From positions 1,146,001 to 1,210,000 of the forward strand of contig NC_133028.1 of NCBI RefSeq assembly GCF_048771995.1: a stretch of 64,000 bases of DNA. Direction: 5' to 3'. The notes beneath the pieces were generated by a model, which made no database searches, was not told the DNA's origin, and worked only from the letters and a program-made list of their open reading frames with translations. This stretch comes from Taeniopygia guttata. Lineage: Eukaryota > Chordata > Aves > Passeriformes > Estrildidae. Shown piece after piece: positions 391 to 54,544 of the stretch (positions are counted from its first letter, which is position 1; each line of letters starts with the position of its first letter). The position numbers were made by a program, and so were the translations under genes.

Positions 391-569
391 CTTGGGAATT
401 AGGGAGAGATCCCAAAGTGGTGTTGATTTGGATTAAAGGGGTTTAAAGCAAAAATGCATGAAAATTAAAAAAAAAAAGATTGGTGTAGAGCCTGGAAATT
501 CCATGTCCTGCTCTCTGAGTGCTGGACATTCCCAATCCCTGTTCCATAACCTGTTTGTGCTCCATGCAG

Positions 570-620
570 GATGCAGGACACCAGCAGGAAAAACAACATT
601 TTCACCCAATTCCAGAAAAA
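570..620 (+). pseudogene. EXOC6B terminal-exon copy 1
   Basis: After AG at 568-569 this copy reads G + MQDTSRKNNIFTQFQKK and then meets TAG in the same frame. It is an exon-start duplicate without the end of the protein. Confidence 0.8.
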
Positions 621-786
621 ATAGCGGGAATTGGGAGACCCCAAAGTGGCGTTGTTTGGGATTAGAAGTATTTAAGCCTGAAAAATCCCCCAAAATTTGG
701 TGTAGAGGCTTGAAATTCCATATTCTCCTCTCAGACCGCTGAACATTCCCAATCCCTGTTCCATAACCTGTTTGTGCTCCGTGCAG

Positions 787-837
787 GATGTGGGATACCA
801 GCAGGAAAAACAACATTTTCACCCAGTTCCAGAAAAA
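787..837 (+). pseudogene. EXOC6B terminal-exon copy 2
   Basis: After AG at 785-786 this copy reads G + MWDTSRKNNIFTQFQKN, then an in-frame TAG. Confidence 0.8.
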
Positions 838-1003
838 TTAGTGGGAATTGGGAGACCCCAAAGTGGCCTTGTTTGGGATTAGAGGGATTTAAGCCTGAAA
901 AATCCCCCAAAATTTGGTGTAGAGGCTTGAAATTCCATATTCTCCTCTCAGACCGCTGAACATTCCCAATCCCTGTTCCATCACCTGTTTGTGCTCTGTG
1001 CAG

Positions 1004-1090
1004 GATGCGGGATACCAGCAGGAAAAATATTTTCCCCCAGTTCCAGGAAAATGAGTGGGAATTGGGAGATCCCAAAGTGGCGTTGATTGG
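1004..1090 (+). pseudogene. EXOC6B terminal-exon copy 3 (short-type unit)
   Basis: After AG at 1002-1003 this copy reads MRDTSRKNIFPQFQENE. One Asn codon is lost relative to the real exon, and the frame continues open into unrelated intron-like sequence. Confidence 0.78.
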
Positions 1091-1199
1091 CATGAAAACT
1101 GCCAAAAAATTGGTGTAGACGCTTGAAATTCCATGTCCTGCTCTCTGAGTGTTGGACATTCCCAATCCCTGTTCCATCACCTGTTTGTGCTCCGTGCAG

Positions 1200-1305
1200 G
1201 ATGCGGGACACCAGCAGGAAAAACAACATTTTCACCCAATTCCAGAAAAAACAGCGGGAATTGGGAGACCCCACAGTGGCATTGATTGGGATTGGAGGGA
1301 TTTAA
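1200..1305 (+). pseudogene. EXOC6B terminal-exon copy 4, longest open tail
   Basis: After AG at 1198-1199 this copy reads MRDTSRKNNIFTQFQKKQRE and stays open for 34 codons, stopping at 1303-1305. It is the best candidate for an alternative C-terminus if spliced, although no polyadenylation signal follows nearby. Confidence 0.8.
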
Positions 1306-1416
1306 GCCTGAAAAATCCCCCAAAATTTGGTGTAGAGGCTTGAAATTCCATATTCTCCTCTCAGACCGCTGAACATTCCCAATCCCTGTTCCATCACCTG
1401 TTTGTGCTCCGTGCAG

Positions 1417-1510
1417 GATGCAGGACACCAGCAGGAAAAATGTTTTCCCCCAGTTCCAGGAAAATGAGTGGGAATTGGGAGATCCCAAAGTGGCATTGAT
1501 TGGCATGAAA
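1417..1510 (+). pseudogene. EXOC6B terminal-exon copy 5 (short-type unit)
   Basis: After AG at 1415-1416 this copy reads MQDTSRKNVFPQFQENE. It is nearly identical to copy 3, showing the two short units are sister duplicates. Confidence 0.78.
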
Positions 1511-1613
1511 ACTGCCCAAAAAATTGGTGTAGACGCTTGAAATTCCATGTCCTGCTCTCCGAGTGTTGGACATTCCCAATCCCTGTTCCATCACCTGTTT
1601 CTGCTCCGTGCAG

Positions 1614-1664
1614 GATGCGGGACACCAGCAGGAAATACAACATTTTCACCCAATTCCAGAAAAA
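1614..1664 (+). pseudogene. EXOC6B terminal-exon copy 6
   Basis: After AG at 1612-1613 this copy reads MRDTSRKYNIFTQFQKN, then TAG. The Asn to Tyr change is shared with copy 8. Confidence 0.78.
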
Positions 1665-1830
1665 TTAGTGGGAATTGGGAGACCCCAAAGTGGCGTTGTT
1701 TGGGATTGGAGTGATTTAAACCTGAAAAATCCCCCAAAATTTGGTGTAGAGGCTTGAAATTCCATATTCTCCTCTCAGACCACTGAACATTCCCAATCCC
1801 TGTTCCATCACCTGTTTGTGCTCCGTGAAG

Positions 1831-1881
1831 GATGCAGGACACCAGCAGGAAAAACAACATTTTCACCCAATTCCAGAAAAA
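1831..1881 (+). pseudogene. EXOC6B terminal-exon copy 7, altered acceptor
   Basis: The dinucleotide AG is kept at 1829-1830, but the preceding base is A (GTGAAG instead of GTGCAG), which weakens the 3' splice site. The copy reads MQDTSRKNNIFTQFQKN, then TAG. Confidence 0.78.
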
Positions 1882-2046
1882 TTAGCGGGAATTGGGAGAC
1901 CCCAAAGTGGCCTTGTTTGGGATTAGAAGTATTTAAGCCTGAAAAATTCCCAAAAATTGATGTAGAGCCAGGAAATTCCATGTCCTCCTCTCAGACCACC
2001 AGACATTCCCAATGCCTGTTCCATAACCTGTTTGTGCTCTGTGCAG

Positions 2047-2152
2047 GATGTGGGACACCAGCAGGAAATACAACATTTTCACCCAATTCCAGAAAAAACA
2101 GCGGGAATTGGGAGACCCCAAAGTGGCGTTGTTTGGGATTGGAGTGATTTAA
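2047..2152 (+). pseudogene. EXOC6B terminal-exon copy 8, adjacent to the real exon
   Basis: After AG at 2045-2046 this copy reads MWDTSRKYNIFTQFQKKQRE and stays open until about 2150. It lies 217 bp upstream of the authentic acceptor and so competes most directly with it. Confidence 0.8.
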
Positions 2153-2263
2153 ACCTGAAAAATCCCCCAAAATTTGGTGTAGAGGCTTGAAATTCCACAT
2201 TCTCCTCTCAGACCGCTGAACATTCCCAATCCCTGTTCCATCACCTGTTTGTGCTCCATGCAG

Positions 2264-2390
2264 GATGCGGGATACCAGCAGGAAAAACAACGTTTTCGCC
2301 CAATTCCGGAAAAACGAGCGGGACAAGCAGAAGTTGATCGACACCGTGGCCAAGCAGCTGCGCGGCCTCATCAACAGCCACCACTCCTGA
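2264..2390 (+). CDS. EXOC6B: EXOC6B, last coding exon (C-terminal 41 residues)
   Basis: EXOC6B (Sec15B) is a subunit of the exocyst, which tethers secretory vesicles to the plasma membrane; Sec15 proteins link the complex to Rab GTPases through their C-terminal part. The exon follows a 3' splice site (AG at 2262-2263). Its first base completes a codon begun in the previous exon, then MRDTSRKNNVFAQFRKN is read, and the protein ends LRGLINSHHS with TGA at 2388-2390. The basic, charged helix and the ending match my memory of vertebrate Sec15B tails. The rest of the gene lies to the left of the window. The same-strand position upstream of CYP26B1 supports B rather than EXOC6, whose partner is CYP26A1/C1. 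The preceding intron is filled with tandem copies of this exon's start. Confidence 0.88.
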
Positions 2391-4591
2391 GGGGCTCGGG
2401 ATGCCCTTCCCGCAGCCGGGACTTCGGGAATCTCGTTGGGAGAGAAGATTTGTATTTTTTTATTCGCCCGGAAAGTCTCCGCGGAGCCTCCCCCCGGCGG
2501 CAAAACCCTCCCGGCGGAACAATCCCGGGAAAAGAGGTGGTGGCAGGAGTCTCCTGGATAAACTCCTATTTTCAGGGGTTTAGGAAGCGATGGGAATTCT
2601 TGGAGCCTGGGAGAAGTTCACACCCGGATTGGGTTGTTTGATTTGGGTTTTTTTGGGTTTTTTTGTTGTTGTTTTTTTTTTTTGTCAAAGCCAAATTGAA
2701 GGGATCATCCTGCCTTCCTTTTGTTAATTTATTCCCTTGGAAAACTGAGAAATATGGGAAGAGCCGCGGGGTCTCTGGGCAGAGGGAGGAAGGTCACCCT
2801 GGGTGTGTCCTGGGGTTTGGATTTAGGCAGGAAAAAGGGATTTCCCAGGGTTTTTTTCTCCTCTTTTCACCCTCCACTGGCTGATTCCCACATTAGACTG
2901 CAAATCCCTGGAATTGCGACCCTTTCCCATCCCTGAGCTCCACTCCAGGACCTGCCAGGGGCTGTGGGATCACGGAGAAGGGTTTGGAGCGGCCACCTGG
3001 ATTAGATTTGGGAAGGGACAGCTGAAGGATAATTTGGGAATGTGTCCTGTGGCAGCGCTCCAGGGCTGGGATGCTGCTGGGGACATCCATGGATGGGCAG
3101 TGGGAAGGGACACTGGGATCTCCTGGTGTCCAGGAAGGGCTTTTCCCTCTCTTTTCCCTGCTGGTGTCCCATCTTCCCTCTCCTCCTGGTGGTTTTCCAT
3201 GGGGAAAACTTCCCCGGGATGTTTTGGAGCTGGATCAGCGGGAATCTCCTGGAGCAGTGGGAGATCCCCCATGGAGCCGCGCTGCTCCAAAGTGCCTGTG
3301 GATAAAATTCCCCCTGTTCCAAAGGCCCCAGAAATCCTCTGCTCAAACCAGGTGGCCACCAACAGGATTTAATCCCAGGATTCCAGTTCCAGAGGGGAAT
3401 TTTCACCCTTCTCATCTTGTCACCATTTTGCCTCTTAATTCCTCACATTATCCAGCCACATTCCCAAACCCTCGAAGGGAATTCCGATCTCCCCGGTGGT
3501 TGTTGCAGCCCTGAACTGCTGCTCCTGTGCCCATTCCCAACCCTCTGGATGCATCCAGAGGTTTTGCCTTCCCACCTTGCTCCTCAGCAATATTTTGGGC
3601 TTGGTTTTCATTTGGAGAAGGTTCCTGTGGCTCAATCCCAAAATTAAACGGGAACTCAGTCAGGAATGACCCCCTGGAGCTCTTGGGCTGTCCCAGCCAT
3701 CTCCAGCTGCAGGGACCAAGGGGTTGTTTTCATTAATAAGAGGGAAAATTTGCAATTCCTTGGGTTTGGACAGGGATGTGGGGTTCCTTGTGAGCTCCTC
3801 CTGGAGGGATGTGGAAGAGGAATGACGGGAAAAGCAGCAGGTGAAGGAAAGTTGGAGTCAGCCTGGCCAAAAAGGGATCGGCTTTGGAGACTCCTCTGGA
3901 AGTGACCCAGAGAGGGACAAGGGATGGGAATTCCGAGTGGGATGGACAAGGAGCAGAAACTCCGGGACACAGGGAAGGGGTTTTGTGCTGTCATCCTGAA
4001 ATTCCATTTTCCTCTCCTATAATTCACGAGGTATTCCCACAAAAAATCCCCAGCACAGCCGAGGCAGCTCCCACCCTTCCCAAATCCACGCTGGACTCTC
4101 CTTCCCATCTCCCTGAACTGTAATTCCAGGAGCAGCGACCTGGGATGGGCATCCCCGCTCCTTCAGGTTCCTTTTGGAAAAACCAGGATTGGGATCCTCC
4201 AAACCGGCTCCTGGCCCTCAGGATTTGCTGCTGGGAAAGTCAAATCCGGCCAAGGGAGAGATTCTGGGAGTTCCTGATCTCGGGAGGTCAAGAGCCGGAA
4301 CCGCAAGTCAGAGCCCGGGATGAAAAATGGGATTTTGGGACTCTGGTCCCAATTAACTTTTTGTTCCAAGAGATGTTCCATCACTTCCAAACAAAATTAA
4401 TCTTTTAAACAGATTGCCCCCAAAAAAAAATAGCCCTGGAAGACATCCCAAATCCCCTCTCAGTCTCTTCCTAATGATGGGTGTCCTCCGACACGGATGG
4501 AATTGCTTAGGAGGGAAAAGTCACTGCAGGGAATTTAAAAGGGGGTGGGAAATGGGGGCAGGACCCAAATCCAAGATTTCCAGCTTCCCAG

Positions 4592-9935: not shown

Positions 9936-10032
9936 GAGGCACCGAGCCGCTCCGAGCCTCCCCGGGAAGCGGCGGCACCTCCTTTCTCCTCGCCTGGTGG
10001 CCCCGGGGATTTGCTGTCCCCGTGTTGGTCCT

Positions 10033-10470
10033 CCAGACACACCCCTGGAAAAGCCATCCCGAGGGACCAGGAGGAAGCGGGGAGCTCCTGGGACAACCAG
10101 AGCGAGCCTGGAATTCTCTTTTCCCTCTCTCCAGGCTCGATCTGGTGGTCCGGCGCTGTGCAGGGCACGGGATGCTCCAGACACACCCCTGGAAAAGCCA
10201 TCCCGAGGGACCAGGAGGGAGCGGGGAGCTCCTGGGACACCCGGAACGACCCTGGAATTCTCTTCTCCCTCTTTCCAGGCTCGATCTGGTGTCCCCGGCG
10301 CTGTGCAGGGCACGGGATGCTCCAGACACACCCCTGGAAAAGCCATCCCGAGGGACCAGGAGGGAGCGGGGAGCTCCTGGGACACCCGGAGCGACCCTGG
10401 AATTCTCTTTTCCCTCTCTCCAGGCTCGATCTGGTGGCCCCGGCGCTGTGCGGGGCACGGGATGCTCCGT
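10033..10470. repeat. ~145-bp tandem repeat, three copies
   Basis: Units begin near 10035, 10179 and 10324 with AGACACACCCCTGGAAAAGC and end in GGCACGGGATGCTCC. The copies differ by few substitutions, so the triplication is recent. The open frames through it are not supported as genes. Confidence 0.9.
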
Positions 10471-28860: not shown

Positions 28861-30230
28861 GTTATATTTTTGAAATTACATACAAGATGAGGTTAAAAAA
28901 AAAAAAAACAACCTGAAAATTCCAACTCTGCCTTCCAAGTTTTTCCCAGTTTCCCCTTCGGGAATGTTTTGCCTGGATAAGGAAAGGGGGAATTGGGGTT
29001 TGGAAAAAAAAAAAAAAAAAGGAAAGGATATGAGGAAGACTCAGAGAAATAAATGATGATTTTAGAAGGGATTTTGGGAAAAGAAAAAAAAAAAAAAGAA
29101 GGAATTAAAAAGGAATATTACCTGGAAGCGCCTCTGGAATTTTCTCAGGGAATCCAATCTGTCTGCGCGGCCGAGAGGGCGCAGCTGCCTGTGCCAGGGA
29201 GCGGAAAACAGGGAAGGAAAATTCCCAGTGGGAGAGACTCCAGCACTTCTTTTGGGATGCCCTGGGAAGGCAGAGCTCCCCCGGGTTCCCTGGGAATGAG
29301 GAAATCCCGGGAATGCTGCTCCGGGCACAACCTCCGGGACTCTCTGCTGCTCTCTCCAGCTGGAATCGAACAGCACTGGGATTTCCAGGAGCTGCAGGGA
29401 GAGCATTGCCCACTCCTGGCACGGCAAATCCCAGGAAATTTGGGAAAAAAGGGAATTTTGCCGCTTTGTGGCCCAGGCAGAGGGAGAGCCTGGAGGGAGC
29501 TTTTCCTCCTGGCACCGGAATTCCCTGTTTTCCCCAAGGTAGGAATTCAGGGTCTCGTTTGTGTCGCAAAATTGGACTCTGGGATCCAGCCCCGTGGGAA
29601 AAGCGGGATTGAATCCCGGGATTTGGGAGTGGTTCAGCCCCAAACCCATCCTGGGGGATGAGATCCCGGCATTCCCATTCCCAAAGGGAAATCCGGCGGT
29701 GCCGTGGCCCCTTTTCCCTCTGGAATTGTCGCTCCCCCGGTGCTTTCTCCACCCCATTTGCGATGTCCCGGCCCCTTGGCTTTGTTTGGGGATGATAAAA
29801 TTCCCCAGGCTCCAGGAAAAGTTGGGAATGCCGCGGCTGCATCCCCACGGACCCGGCTTCAGCTCCGGGTCCAACCTTGGAAAACCTGGATTTATCTCCA
29901 GAGGGTGGGAATCTGCTCCAAAAAAAACCCTTTTAACCCCACAAATATTTAATTTTTTTTAGGCTTTCCCACTTTCTCCTTGAATTCCCGGTAGTAGGAA
30001 AAGAAATATTGGGAATTTCCATAAAATTCTTATGGAATTCCGAGCTGGTGGCTCGTTCCTGCCCCTTTCCCTGCTCCTCGGAAGGGCTTTTCCACACACT
30101 TGGAAAGATTTTGGGACAGGAATTCTGCTGCTTTGGGGAGGCCAAGAGCATCCCCGGGATGGATTTTTCCATGGAAAAGGAAGGAGGAGGGAAGGCCTCC
30201 TTGCTGGGAATTCCAGGGGTGTTTTCCACT
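28861..30230. other. intergenic stretch with A-runs only
   Basis: Contains poly(A) runs near 28894, 29005 and 29084. The rest is unique DNA without recognised exon, RNA gene or transposon. Confidence 0.45.
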
Positions 30231-30234
30231 GGGG

Positions 30235-31515
30235 TCAGGGATCGTTTTGGGAAGGAGTTTTGGGAAGGGGTTTCCCAAGTGAGGGGTTTGGAGCAGGAAT
30301 TTTGGGAAGATGCTTTGGGGAAGGGCTTCAGGAAGTGTTGGGAAGGTTTTTGGGGAAGGAATTTTGGGAAGGCGTGAGGTGCCTGGGGCAGGTGTTTTGG
30401 GAACAATCTTTGGGAACAGTTTTTGGGAACAATCTTTGGGAACAGTTTTTGGGAACAATCTTTGGGAACAGTTTTTGGGAAGACGCTTTGGGAACAGTTT
30501 TTGGGAACAATCTTTGGGAACAGTTTTTGGGAACAATCTTTGGGAACAGTTTTTGGGAAAACACTTTGGGAACAGTTTTTGGGAACAACCTTTGGGAACA
30601 GTTTTTGGGAAAACGCTTTGGGAACAGTTTTTGGGAATAATCTTTGGGAACAGTTTTTGGGAAAACACTTTGGGTTGGCATTTTGGGAAGGTGCATTGGG
30701 AGCGTGTGAGGTGCTTTGGGAAGATCCTTTTGGGAATCACTTCCAGCAAGAATTTTGGGAAGATATTTTGGGAAGGGGCTTCAGGAAGATGCTTTGGGAA
30801 GGGGAGCTGGGACAGCGCGAGGTGCTCTGGGAGCCACTTGGGACAAATATTTTGGGAAGACGCCATGGGAAGGGGCTCTGAAAAAGTATTTGGGGAAGGT
30901 ATTTCAGGAAATTTTTTTGGGAATGTTTTTTGGGACGGAGCTTTGGGATGGGGAGATGCGTGTGAGAGATGCAGGAAGAGGCTTTGGGAAGGCTTTTTGG
31001 GAATGTTTTTCAGGAAGGTTTTGCAGGATGGGGAGATTTGTGTGAGAGGTTCAGGAAGAGGATTTGGGAAGGTTTGTTAGGAAGGTATTTTGGGAGAGTT
31101 TTTTGGGAATATTTTTCAGGAAGGTTTTGTGGGATGGGCAAATGTGTGTGAGATATTCAAGAAGCTGCTTTGGGAATGTTTTTTGGGAATGTTTTTCAGG
31201 AAGGCTTTGCAGCATGGGAAGATTTGTGTGAGAGATTCAGGAAGAGGCTTTGGGAATGTTTTTTGGGAATGTTTTTCAGGAAGGCTTTGCAGGATGGGGA
31301 GATTTCTGTGAGAGATTCGGGAAGAGGCTTTGGGAAGGTTTTTTGGGAATGTTTTTCGGGAAGGTTTTTTGGGAATTTTTTCAGGAAGGCTTTGCAGGAT
31401 GGGGAGATTTCTGTGAGACATTCAGGAAGAGGCTTTGGGAAGGTTTTTTGGGAAGGTTTTTTGGGAATGTTTTTCGGGAAGAGGCTTTGGGAAGGTTTTT
31501 TGGGAAGACGCTTTG
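30235..31515. repeat. TTTGGGAA minisatellite complex
   Basis: Built from TTTTGGGAA elements. In 30395-30670 the unit is about 24 bp (TTGGGAACAATC or TTTGGGAACAGT). From about 30940 to 31510 longer units of ~80-100 bp combine GATTCAGGAAGAGGCTTTGG, GGAATGTTTTTCAGGAAGGC and TTTGCAGGATGGGGAGAT. Both derive from the same core. Confidence 0.9.
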
Positions 31516-31560
31516 GAGAAGCGATCGGGGCCGAGCCCGGGGACACCCAGTGAGGAGGAG

Positions 31561-32442
31561 GAGGCGGGACAGGAGGGGACATTGAAGGGGACAGGAGGGG
31601 ACGGGGAAGGGGACAGGGGAGGGGACAGGTGAGGGGACATGGAGGGGACAGGAGGGGACAGGGGAGAGGACATTGAAGGGGACAGGAGGGGACAATGATG
31701 GGACAGGAGGGGACAATGAGGGGACATTGAAGAGGACAGGGGAGGGGACATTGAAGGGGACAGGGGAGGGGACAGGAGGGAACTTTGAAGGGGACAGGGG
31801 ACGGGACATTGAAGGGGACAGGGGAGGGGACATTGAAGGGGACAAGAGAGGGGACATTAAAGGGGACATTGAAGGGGACAGGAGGGGACAGGGAGGGGAC
31901 ATTGAAGGGGATAGGGGACGGAATATTGAAGGGGACAAGGGAGGGGACATTGAAGGGGACAGGGAGGGGACGTTGAAGGGGACAGGGGAGGGGACAGGAG
32001 GGGACAAGGAGGGAACATTGAAGGGGACAGGGAGGGGACGTTGAAGGGGACAGGGAGGGGACAGGTGAGGGGACATTGAAAGTGACAGGGAGGGGACATT
32101 GAAGGGGCAGGGGACGGGACATTGAAGGGGACAGGGAGGGAACATTGAAGGGGACAGGAGAGGGGACATTGAAGGGGACAGGAGGGGACAAGGAGGGGAC
32201 AGGGGACGGGACATTGAAGAGGACAGGAGAGGGGACATTGAAGGGGACAGGGAGGGGACATTAAACGGGACAAGGGAGGGGACAATGAGGGGACATTGAA
32301 GGGGATAGAGGAGAGGACAGGAGGGGACAGGGAAGGGAGAGGAGGGGATATTGAAGGGGACAGGGAGGTGACATTGAAGGGGACAGGGGAGGGGACATTG
32401 AAGGGGACAGGGAGGGGACAGGGGAGGGGACAGGAGGGGACA
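31561..32442. repeat. GGGGACA minisatellite, G-quadruplex prone
   Basis: Units of ~17-35 bp such as GGGGACATTGAAGGGGACAG and GGGGACAGGGGAGGGGACAG. Runs of four G separated by 1-5 bases recur across nearly 900 bp on the + strand. Confidence 0.92.
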
Positions 32443-33290
32443 GTGCCACCTCCACCTGCCGGCCCTGCAGTGCCCGCGGCCGCCACCGGGTGGGGCCGTG
32501 GGGCCGCAGTGAGCGGCGGCAGAGGGGGTGGGGGGATGCGGGGCTCGGGGGGCTCGGGGGGCTCCGGGCCCGGGATGCGCCCACCCGGGAAGGGATCCCC
32601 GCTCCGGAGAGGGGGATCCCCACCCTGGGGGACGGCAGCGGGGAGAGGAGGAGTCCCCGCAGCGGGATGCGCCGTGGTGGTGACGGGAATTCCCGTGGGA
32701 TGCCATTGGGGGGGTGTATGGGGGGGTTCTATCACCGGGAATGGGGTGCGGGGCTGGGTGACCCCAAAGATGCGGGAATTGGGATGCTCCGAGGGGATCC
32801 CGCCCCAGGGGGATGCGGGGAAGGGGGTCCAGCTTGGCTCCACCCCCCCCCCACCCCGGGGTCACCCCAAAAATAAAAAGTGGGGGGGGTGCCCCCGCCC
32901 CCTCTTCCCTGCGCTCCCACCGGGAACAGAGCGGACCCAGCGGGGAGGGGCGGGGAGGGGGCGCAGGGGAAGGGGGGAACTCAAAGAACTTTTGTTTTTC
33001 CTGTAATCTGAAGCAAATGCGTGGCTGCGAGCGGGCGGCCCCGCTACCTGCTGCCATCCCCGCGGGGGGAAAGGGAATTTTCTGGGGGTCGGAGCCTCCT
33101 GGACAATGGGGACACCCCTGGGAAAAGCGGCGTCACCCAGCAAAGCTGGCCTGGGGAGCAGGAAAATTCCCACCCCCCCTCCAATAAATTAAAATAGAGC
33201 AAGACCCCAAAATGTGGTGGGGGCACTGAGGAAATCACTGCGAGGTTAATTATCACTGGTAATTAGGGGAGGGTGCTTAGGATTAATGCA
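32443..33290. other. GC-rich unique DNA upstream of CYP26B1
   Basis: CpG-containing, with a GGGGCT cluster near 32540. Near 33230-33275, GAGGTTAATTATCACTGG and GTAATTAGGGG form a small homeodomain-site cluster. No exon was recognised. Confidence 0.35.
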
Positions 33291-34870
33291 AAGGGGGAAA
33301 TGATTGTGGGGGGGTCGTTGCAAGGGGGCAGATCCTGGTGGGGCAATTCTGTAATGGGGGAAATCTGGGAAATAATGGGAAAAGGAGGGGGGTCAGGATC
33401 ATCAAAGGGGGAGGGAAATTATTCCCAGGAGGAAATGAGGGAAGGGGAACATCAATAGGCAGGGAGAAATTATTGGGGAGGGGGAAAAAAATCAATGGTT
33501 GGGGTGAATTAATGTCAGGTGTGGGGGTAAAGCTGTGCCTGGGTGGGGGCAGAGAGGGAAATCACGGACGGGGGAAATAATTAGGGAATAAATTGGGGCG
33601 GGGAGGGTCATGAAAAGGGGGGAATTCCTGTGGGGATGAAAGTTTTGCGGGGGGAAGCATTAAGGGTTAAATATTGGGGGGAGCGAAGGGGGGGGATTGG
33701 GGCTTAAATATGGGGGGGAAGGCGTGAAGAGTTAAATATGAGGGGATCATTACGGGGGAAATATCAGGGATTAAACATCGGGGGAAATGATCGAGGGTTA
33801 AGTTTGGGGGGATCATCACGAGGGGGAGTCAGGGTTAAACATTTGGGGGGGTTGTGGAGAGGGGGAACAACGAAGGGTTAAATGGGGGGGGGATTTTTGC
33901 CAGGGTAAAATGATCGAGTGTTAAATATTGGGGGGGTGGAATCAAGGATTAAATATTGGGGGGGTAACCAAGGATTAAATATTGGGGGGACAATCGCAGG
34001 GAGATCAAATCCTGGGGATGGAGGGGTTTGTGGCAAGGGGGGAACGATCAAGGATTAAATATTGGGGGGACAATTCTAGGGGGATCACTGAGGGGGGTTT
34101 GTGGCAAAGGGAAAAGGATCAAAGATTAAATATTGGGGGAACAACGCCAGGGGATCCCTGGGGGGGTTTGTCGCAAAGGGAAAAGGATCAAAGATTAAAT
34201 ATTGGGGGAACAACGCCAGGGGATCCCTGGGGGGGGTTTGTCGCAAAGGGAAAAGGATCAAGGATTAAATATTGGGGGAACAATCCTAGGGGGATCACTG
34301 GGGGGGTTTGTGGCAAAGGGAAAAGGATCAAGGATTAAATATTGGGGGAACAATCCCGAGAGGATCCCTGGGGGGGGTTGTGGCAAAGGGAAAAGGATCA
34401 AGGGTTGGCAAAAGGAAAAGGATCAAGGATTAAATATTGGGGGGACAATCCTAGGGGGATTTGTGGCAAAAGGAAAAGGATCAAGGATTAAATATTGGGG
34501 GAACAATCCCGGGGGATCACTGGGGAGGGGGGGTTGAGGCAAAAGGATCAAGGTTTAAATTTTGGGGGAACAATCCTAGGGGGATCACTGAGGGGGGGTT
34601 GGCAAAAGGAAAAGGATCAAAGATTAAATATTGGGGGAGCAGTCCCGAGAGGATCCCTGTTGGGGGGGTTTGGCAAAAGGAAAATGATCAAGGATTAAAT
34701 ATTGGGGGACCAATCCCGGGGGGATCACTGGGGAGGGGGGGGGTTGAGGCAAAATGATCAAGGATTAAATATTGGGGGAACAACGCCGGGGGATCCCTAC
34801 GGGGGGTGTAGCAAGGGGGGAACGATCTCGGCTCGAACCCTGAGGAGACAATCCCGGATTAAATATCGGG
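33290..34870. repeat. G-rich satellite with ATTAAATATTGGGGG units
   Basis: From about 33950 to 34830 a 60-70-bp unit recurs about a dozen times: GGATCAAGGATTAAATATTG, GGGGAACAATCC, a GGGGGATC(A/C)CTGGGGGGG block and GTGGCAAAGGGAAAA. 33290-33950 holds more degraded versions with single TTAAATATTGGGGG elements. It ends about 100 bp before the CYP26B1 CpG-rich leader. Confidence 0.9.

Positions 34871-35572: not shown

Positions 35573-54544
<18,972 letters not shown>

Follow-up and report, generated by a model that had tools for sequence, protein, structure and literature searches.

The window (the whole stretch analysed, 64,000 nt, C5:1146001-1210000; positions given without a contig count from its first letter) contains the terminal exon of a gene that is, judging from sequence, probably EXOC6B, and a tandem array runs into this exon. 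A Sec15_C (PF04091) profile search of the genome gave seven matches on the plus strand of contig C5 and seven on contig C8; three of the C5 matches fall below the curated cut-off, including the last (profile positions 311-348 at 1140322-1140438; the penultimate exon alone, 25.8 bits, E 0.0045). The two exons that flank the final, 7,826-nt intron are:

C5:1140325-1140437, + strand: penultimate exon of the probable EXOC6B (Sec15_C); ends in AA followed by GTGAGT; joins the terminal exon in frame
2264-2390, + strand: coding part of the terminal exon of the probable EXOC6B; entered in phase 2; TGA at 2388-2390; similar to its counterpart in the C8 paralogue

Once joined, they stay open through in phase 2, end in ...TTALILLEKMRDTSRKNNVFAQFRKNERDKQKLIDTVAKQLRGLINSHHS and then stop. 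Downstream, a CYP26B1-like N-terminal peptide lies at 36494, its motif matching what we take to be the start of CYP26B1, and P450 Pfam matches occur in two of the ten references tried (52469-52873 and 54110-54541); the reference with the CYP26B1-like N-terminal peptide gave no Pfam match. EXOC6B presumably adjoins CYP26B1; thus the Sec15_C exon joined in frame, together with the CYP26B1-like and P450 matches downstream, fits EXOC6B, the identity proposed in a preliminary description of this DNA. The 41-residue terminal exon had no meaningful match in Pfam or PDB, nor had the penultimate exon in PDB.

The Sec15_C paralogue on C8 is taken to be EXOC6, distinct from the EXOC6B locus. Its acceptor falls at the corresponding codon (AG, then A ATG), which suggests the phase of its terminal exon. 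The two tails share 28 of their first 37 residues, and 14 of 18 in residues 20-37. No array comparable to that of C5 was found in 30 kb at the C8 paralogue by Tandem Repeats Finder; the largest repeat period there is 26.

Anatomy and setting of the array

The minisatellite array is real. Tandem Repeats Finder places it at 480-2323 (period 217, 8.7 copies, 84% matches, score 2577), with a second row of period 413 over the same array; divided into units, it comprises nine head-to-tail members at 398-2323, namely eight imperfect copies (398-2106, decoys hereafter) and a ninth unit that carries the true acceptor (2107-2323):

394-397, + strand: GGGA bordering the array on its left, common to the exon GGGA at 2320-2323
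398-629, + strand: decoy unit 1, 232 bp; AG ends at 569; edge unit, intron part furthest from unit 9 (80% identity)
630-846, + strand: decoy unit 2, 217 bp; AG ends at 786
847-1060, + strand: decoy unit 3, 214 bp; AG ends at 1003; exon part with a 3-nt deletion
1061-1259, + strand: decoy unit 4, 199 bp; AG ends at 1199; intron part shortened
1260-1473, + strand: decoy unit 5, 214 bp; AG ends at 1416; exon part with a 3-nt deletion; groups with unit 3
1474-1673, + strand: decoy unit 6, 200 bp; AG ends at 1613; groups with unit 4; top-scoring of the nine boundary acceptors
1674-1890, + strand: decoy unit 7, 217 bp; acceptor AAG, ending at 1830; intron part closest to unit 9 (97%)
1891-2106, + strand: decoy unit 8, 216 bp; AG ends at 2046
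2107-2323, + strand: unit 9; final 157 intron nt, true acceptor (AG ends at 2263) and first 60 nt of the terminal exon

Each unit has 139-172 nt of intron end up to the AG, followed by 57-60 nt homologous to the exon, and in all eight decoys this homology begins at the native boundary and stops at one common point. Units end in AG[C/T]GGGA and units 2-9 start, straight after it, with ATTGGGAGA, while unit 1 starts with ATTAGGGAGA; there are no N bases within the array. The preliminary description was partly right, and on the structure it holds: the repeat spans the intron-exon boundary, every unit combines an acceptor with a stretch of terminal-exon sequence, the row closes with the true exon, and the nine AGs lie exactly where it placed them. 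Its 217-bp unit is the program's period, but the units actually measure 199-232 bp, and the break at AGCGGGA holds for copies 1, 4, 7 and 8 but reads AGTGGGA in copies 2, 3, 5 and 6.

Used as a query of the genome, the terminal exon recovered itself and five of the eight decoys (units 1, 2, 3, 4 and 7) at 83-90% identity across 57-60 nt, with E from 2e-14 to 2e-8, which excludes chance; nothing was listed away from the EXOC6B-array locus, the counts being lower bounds. A 151-nt query from the intron part gave at least nine matches, every one within the array.

The surroundings are rich in repeats. Tandem repeats with a period of at least 10 cover 17.5% of the window and 14.7% of C5:946001-1210000 (one 5-kb N stretch included in the denominator); across the 20 upstream 10-kb pieces, coverage varies between 0.4% and 66.5%, two of 20 being below 1% and as repeat-poor as the controls, so the contrast in density is uneven. 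The interior 10-kb control samples, of which C5 gave four and C8 three, all stay at 0 to 1.6%; the four from C5 are AT-rich (G+C 0.33-0.35) and thus poor composition matches, and of the three from C8 two are similar in G+C (0.52 and 0.47) and have 1.0% and 0.4%. The locus lies 1.15 Mb from the contig start. The array overlaps one of the eight EXOC6B exons located (the terminal exon and seven Sec15_C matches, of which three fall short of the curated cut-off), the exon boundaries being edges of profile matches and so approximate. Given 14.7% coverage, chance alone should place arrays over about two of 15 boundaries; a special tie of arrays to exon boundaries is therefore unsupported, an array across one of the 15 being no more than chance.

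Other repeats in the region may be recorded here. The minisatellite load close to the contig start is very high, one 10-kb piece of C5:946001-1210000 having 66.5% coverage. A second array at 10031-10468, between EXOC6B and the CYP26B1-like gene, consists of three 145-bp copies, each with a sequence like TTCTCTTTTCCCTCTCTCCAG followed directly by GCTCGATCTGG, resembling a polypyrimidine tract and acceptor. Long arrays lie at 30395-32443, before the CYP26B1-like gene, and GC skew is strong at 30001-34000 (0.573 and 0.445 in two 2-kb bins).

Splice signals and decay of the copied exon parts

If every unit brings its own acceptor, what sets the true one apart? Little in the local motifs does. AG is kept in all eight decoys, TGCAG in seven and GTGCAG in six, rather than in the seven first reported: copy 1 has ATGCAG, as does the true site, and copy 7 has GTGAAG. 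On a rough generic matrix, which underlies all splice-site scores given here, the true acceptor scores 4.78 and ranks 28 among the 445 AGs that the intron contains. Higher scores (4.94-6.57) go to decoys 2, 3, 4, 5, 6 and 8, while decoy 1 equals the true site (4.78) and decoy 7 reaches 1.52. At each of the nine boundary acceptors the A of a TNAY branch-like site falls at -21, and 12-13 of 17 positions are pyrimidines; a full yTnAy was found in the last 50 nt of none of the nine. The decoy scores and the shared TNAY thus indicate motif strength without preference for the true site.

A further acceptor-like AG (CATATTCTCCTCTCAG) lies 52 nt earlier in units 2, 3, 5 and 7 (at 734, 951, 1364 and 1778) and scores 6.57, more than the true site and seven of the eight decoy boundary acceptors and equal to that of unit 6; unit 9 has a like-placed AG at 2211, read directly from the sequence.

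Donor signals are another matter. The best of the 84 GTs in 561-2330 scores -0.25 versus 5.00 for the real donor, though 62 of the 570 GTs in the intron and its flanks reach -0.25. Since no array GT comes near the real donor on this matrix, no copy is bounded by both an acceptor and a donor as a cassette pseudo-exon would be, and the term pseudo-exon, used at first, is too strong; a copy, if used, would most likely be an alternative beginning of a longer terminal exon. Neither AATAAA nor ATTAAA begins anywhere from 465 to 3642, so a decoy-spliced transcript is expected to run through the remaining array. Read in the native frame, copies 1 to 8 would continue for 17, 17, 37, 34, 40, 17, 17 and 34 codons, versus 41 in the true exon. 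The C-termini first proposed, 34 codons in copy 4 and about 17 in others, agree with this for copies 4, 1, 2, 6 and 7; copy 8 gives 34, copy 3 gives 37 and copy 5 gives 40. Use of a decoy would cost the protein a tail that is conserved in the C8 paralogue (14/18, residues 20-37), and the last acceptor would therefore be needed in most transcripts.

The exon parts of the decoys bear the marks of unconstrained change. Compared with the true exon, 48 of 96 CpG-site cells differ versus 13 of 378 other cells, and 45 of 61 codon differences (0.74; two further codon cells, both indels, are left out) are nonsynonymous, the same share as expected under neutrality (0.74, for unselected change with transitions weighted four-fold); many of these differences are shared by descent, so the cells are not independent events. 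One common codon gives the stop in four of the eight copies. The exon parts thus appear to have decayed in a neutral-like manner, mainly at CpG, and selection on the decoy coding sequence is rejected, the nonsynonymous share being that of the neutral expectation. Taken at the usual bird substitution rate, the non-CpG divergence of 3.4% would suggest, very roughly, 10-30 million years.

Are the decoy acceptors themselves under constraint? Among the decoys, the segment from -45 to -1 has fewer variable columns (7/45) than the distal intron part (34/94; p 0.017, and the same p without CpG columns); without edge unit 1, p is 0.056, and additionally without CpG columns 0.11. Lower variability could mean constraint; however, the exon part, which has no coding constraint, is as conserved as the acceptor segment (11/57 columns, p 0.80). 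A signal of selection on the decoy acceptors thus cannot be told apart from the equal conservation of the exon part.

Origin and competing readings

The array is probably a neutral 'mirage' minisatellite spanning the boundary, its copies being intronic passengers. It would have arisen by a single tandem duplication that took in about 157-172 nt from the end of the final EXOC6B intron and the first 60 nt of the terminal exon, with the first copy placed upstream, possibly joined at the common GGGA. That all units stop at a GGGA also present at the left edge fits one tandem duplication followed by amplification; with just four shared bases, a join through microhomology is weak and no more than suggestive. 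Unequal exchange of one- and two-unit blocks may then have produced the eight extra units. The units group as 3/5, 4/6 and 7/9 (support 0.924, 0.925 and 0.850): those inside the cluster pair up, and in the intron part it is edge unit 1 that stands furthest from unit 9, though in the exon part unit 5 takes that place. Exchange would also have drawn in the intron end now serving the true exon: over its intron half, unit 9 matches unit 7 at 97% identity, so the true-exon acceptor itself belongs to the exchanging array. The exon part of the copies would subsequently have decayed without constraint, mainly at CpG, while selection would keep the last acceptor, that of the true exon, in use because only its unit continues into the conserved C-terminus; the copies are perhaps spliced to at a low level, giving a changed C-terminus. 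The duplication step, the exchange and the predominant use of the last acceptor are what we infer from these patterns. Some observations sit less easily with the passenger reading: six of eight decoys outscore the true acceptor and one equals it, so that local motif strength does not favour the last site, and the reduced variability from -45 to -1 is readable as constraint.

The high decoy scores, with the AG retained in 8/8 decoys, TGCAG in 7/8 and branch-like A and pyrimidines at all nine sites, would fit decoys used enough to matter, giving alternative EXOC6B C-termini of 17, 34, 37 or 40 codons versus 41, with copy number tuning their share. We regard such use as unlikely: codon differences stand at the neutral proportion, a common codon ends the frame in half of the copies, the continuations vary from copy to copy, every copy loses the tail common to the C5 and C8 paralogues, and the authors of the amphioxus studies saw no disturbed splicing (PMC3087553, PMC3902484). 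A more specific proposal, that the array could be a vertebrate copy-number switch in which tissue- or haplotype-specific upstream acceptors yield EXOC6B without the conserved tail, in a share set by unit number and order, is quite improbable. Nor do the units look like a step toward intron gain or recursive splicing, serving as ratchet points or new internal exons. This route has a precedent in potato RdRp (PMC4974935) and was proposed by the amphioxus authors (PMC3087553), but the nine AGs are followed by GATG, not GTRAG, and hence make no ratchet site, and the donor scores given above speak against internal exons, despite the many GTs that reach as high. Recursive splicing and cassette exons are disfavoured on these grounds, and the reading as a whole is extremely doubtful.

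Could the array reflect how the sequence was put together or where it came from? Long tandem arrays are generally error-prone, and copies may be added or mis-joined by an assembler; however, the intron parts of the decoys differ by 3-22%, the units have their own indels and an ordered dimer pattern, and the array is free of N, all of which makes an artefact very unlikely, though the number of copies may not be exact. There is a vanishingly small chance that the source was a dispersed repeat or transposon family with a piece of exon picked up by accident: the genome search, whose counts are lower bounds, found the unit only at the EXOC6B locus, and the exon homology runs from the native boundary to one common end point in all eight decoys. 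With the 151-nt query matching only in the array, this origin is rejected within search sensitivity.

Relation to known boundary-spanning repeats

The preliminary description knew of no account of such a structure, but the amphioxus 'mirages' share it (PMC3087553, PMC3902484). In the globin genes BflGb6 and BflGb9, mirage minisatellites lie across intron-exon boundaries; they do not seem to disturb splicing, and the authors propose a route of intron gain through them (PMC3087553). TnC and PGBD5 add to the list of amphioxus mirage genes (PMC3902484). Like these, the EXOC6B array is a set of tandem repeats across an intron-exon boundary, with units made of intron end, AG and exon start, the authentic exon as the last unit, homogenised inner units and a divergent boundary unit. 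Unlike them, it is found in a vertebrate, at a terminal exon, with eight extra units of 199-232 bp, and is known from the sequence of one assembly. An amphioxus Adh3 mirage minisatellite is also said to have been described by Canestro et al. in 2002.

On the donor side, Turri et al. reportedly described in 1995 a minisatellite of human IFI6 (6-16) with multiple splice donor sites. As in EXOC6B, a splice site of a vertebrate gene has been multiplied by a minisatellite lying at the junction; unlike in EXOC6B, the IFI6 repeats lie on the donor side and, according to a citing paper, the units are used as donors. The IFI6 repeat unit is said to be short, versus 199-232 bp in EXOC6B. A tandem duplication across a boundary gave rise to a new intron in potato RdRp (PMC4974935); this was a single duplication with the new intron formed through a cryptic donor, whereas EXOC6B has eight extra copies and no comparable donor. 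DDX3Y MSY2, considered as a parallel, was set aside: it is a minisatellite with a transcription start, not a splice-boundary array (PMC3039753). No acceptor-side boundary array in a bird or other vertebrate was among the literature matches listed, a search that left most subscription journals outside and does not imply absence.

The array is a naturally occurring test of acceptor choice, in which the spliceosome meets eight near-identical sites before the true one: the nine units nearly share branch-like site, pyrimidine stretch and AG, and differ mainly in distal exon sequence and order. It is also a warning that automatic EXOC6B gene models might choose the wrong acceptor. Finally, it suggests that mirages, reported from lancelets, also arise in vertebrates where minisatellites are dense. 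The EXOC6B array is a further mirage, of a structure type already known, now on the acceptor side of a vertebrate terminal exon.
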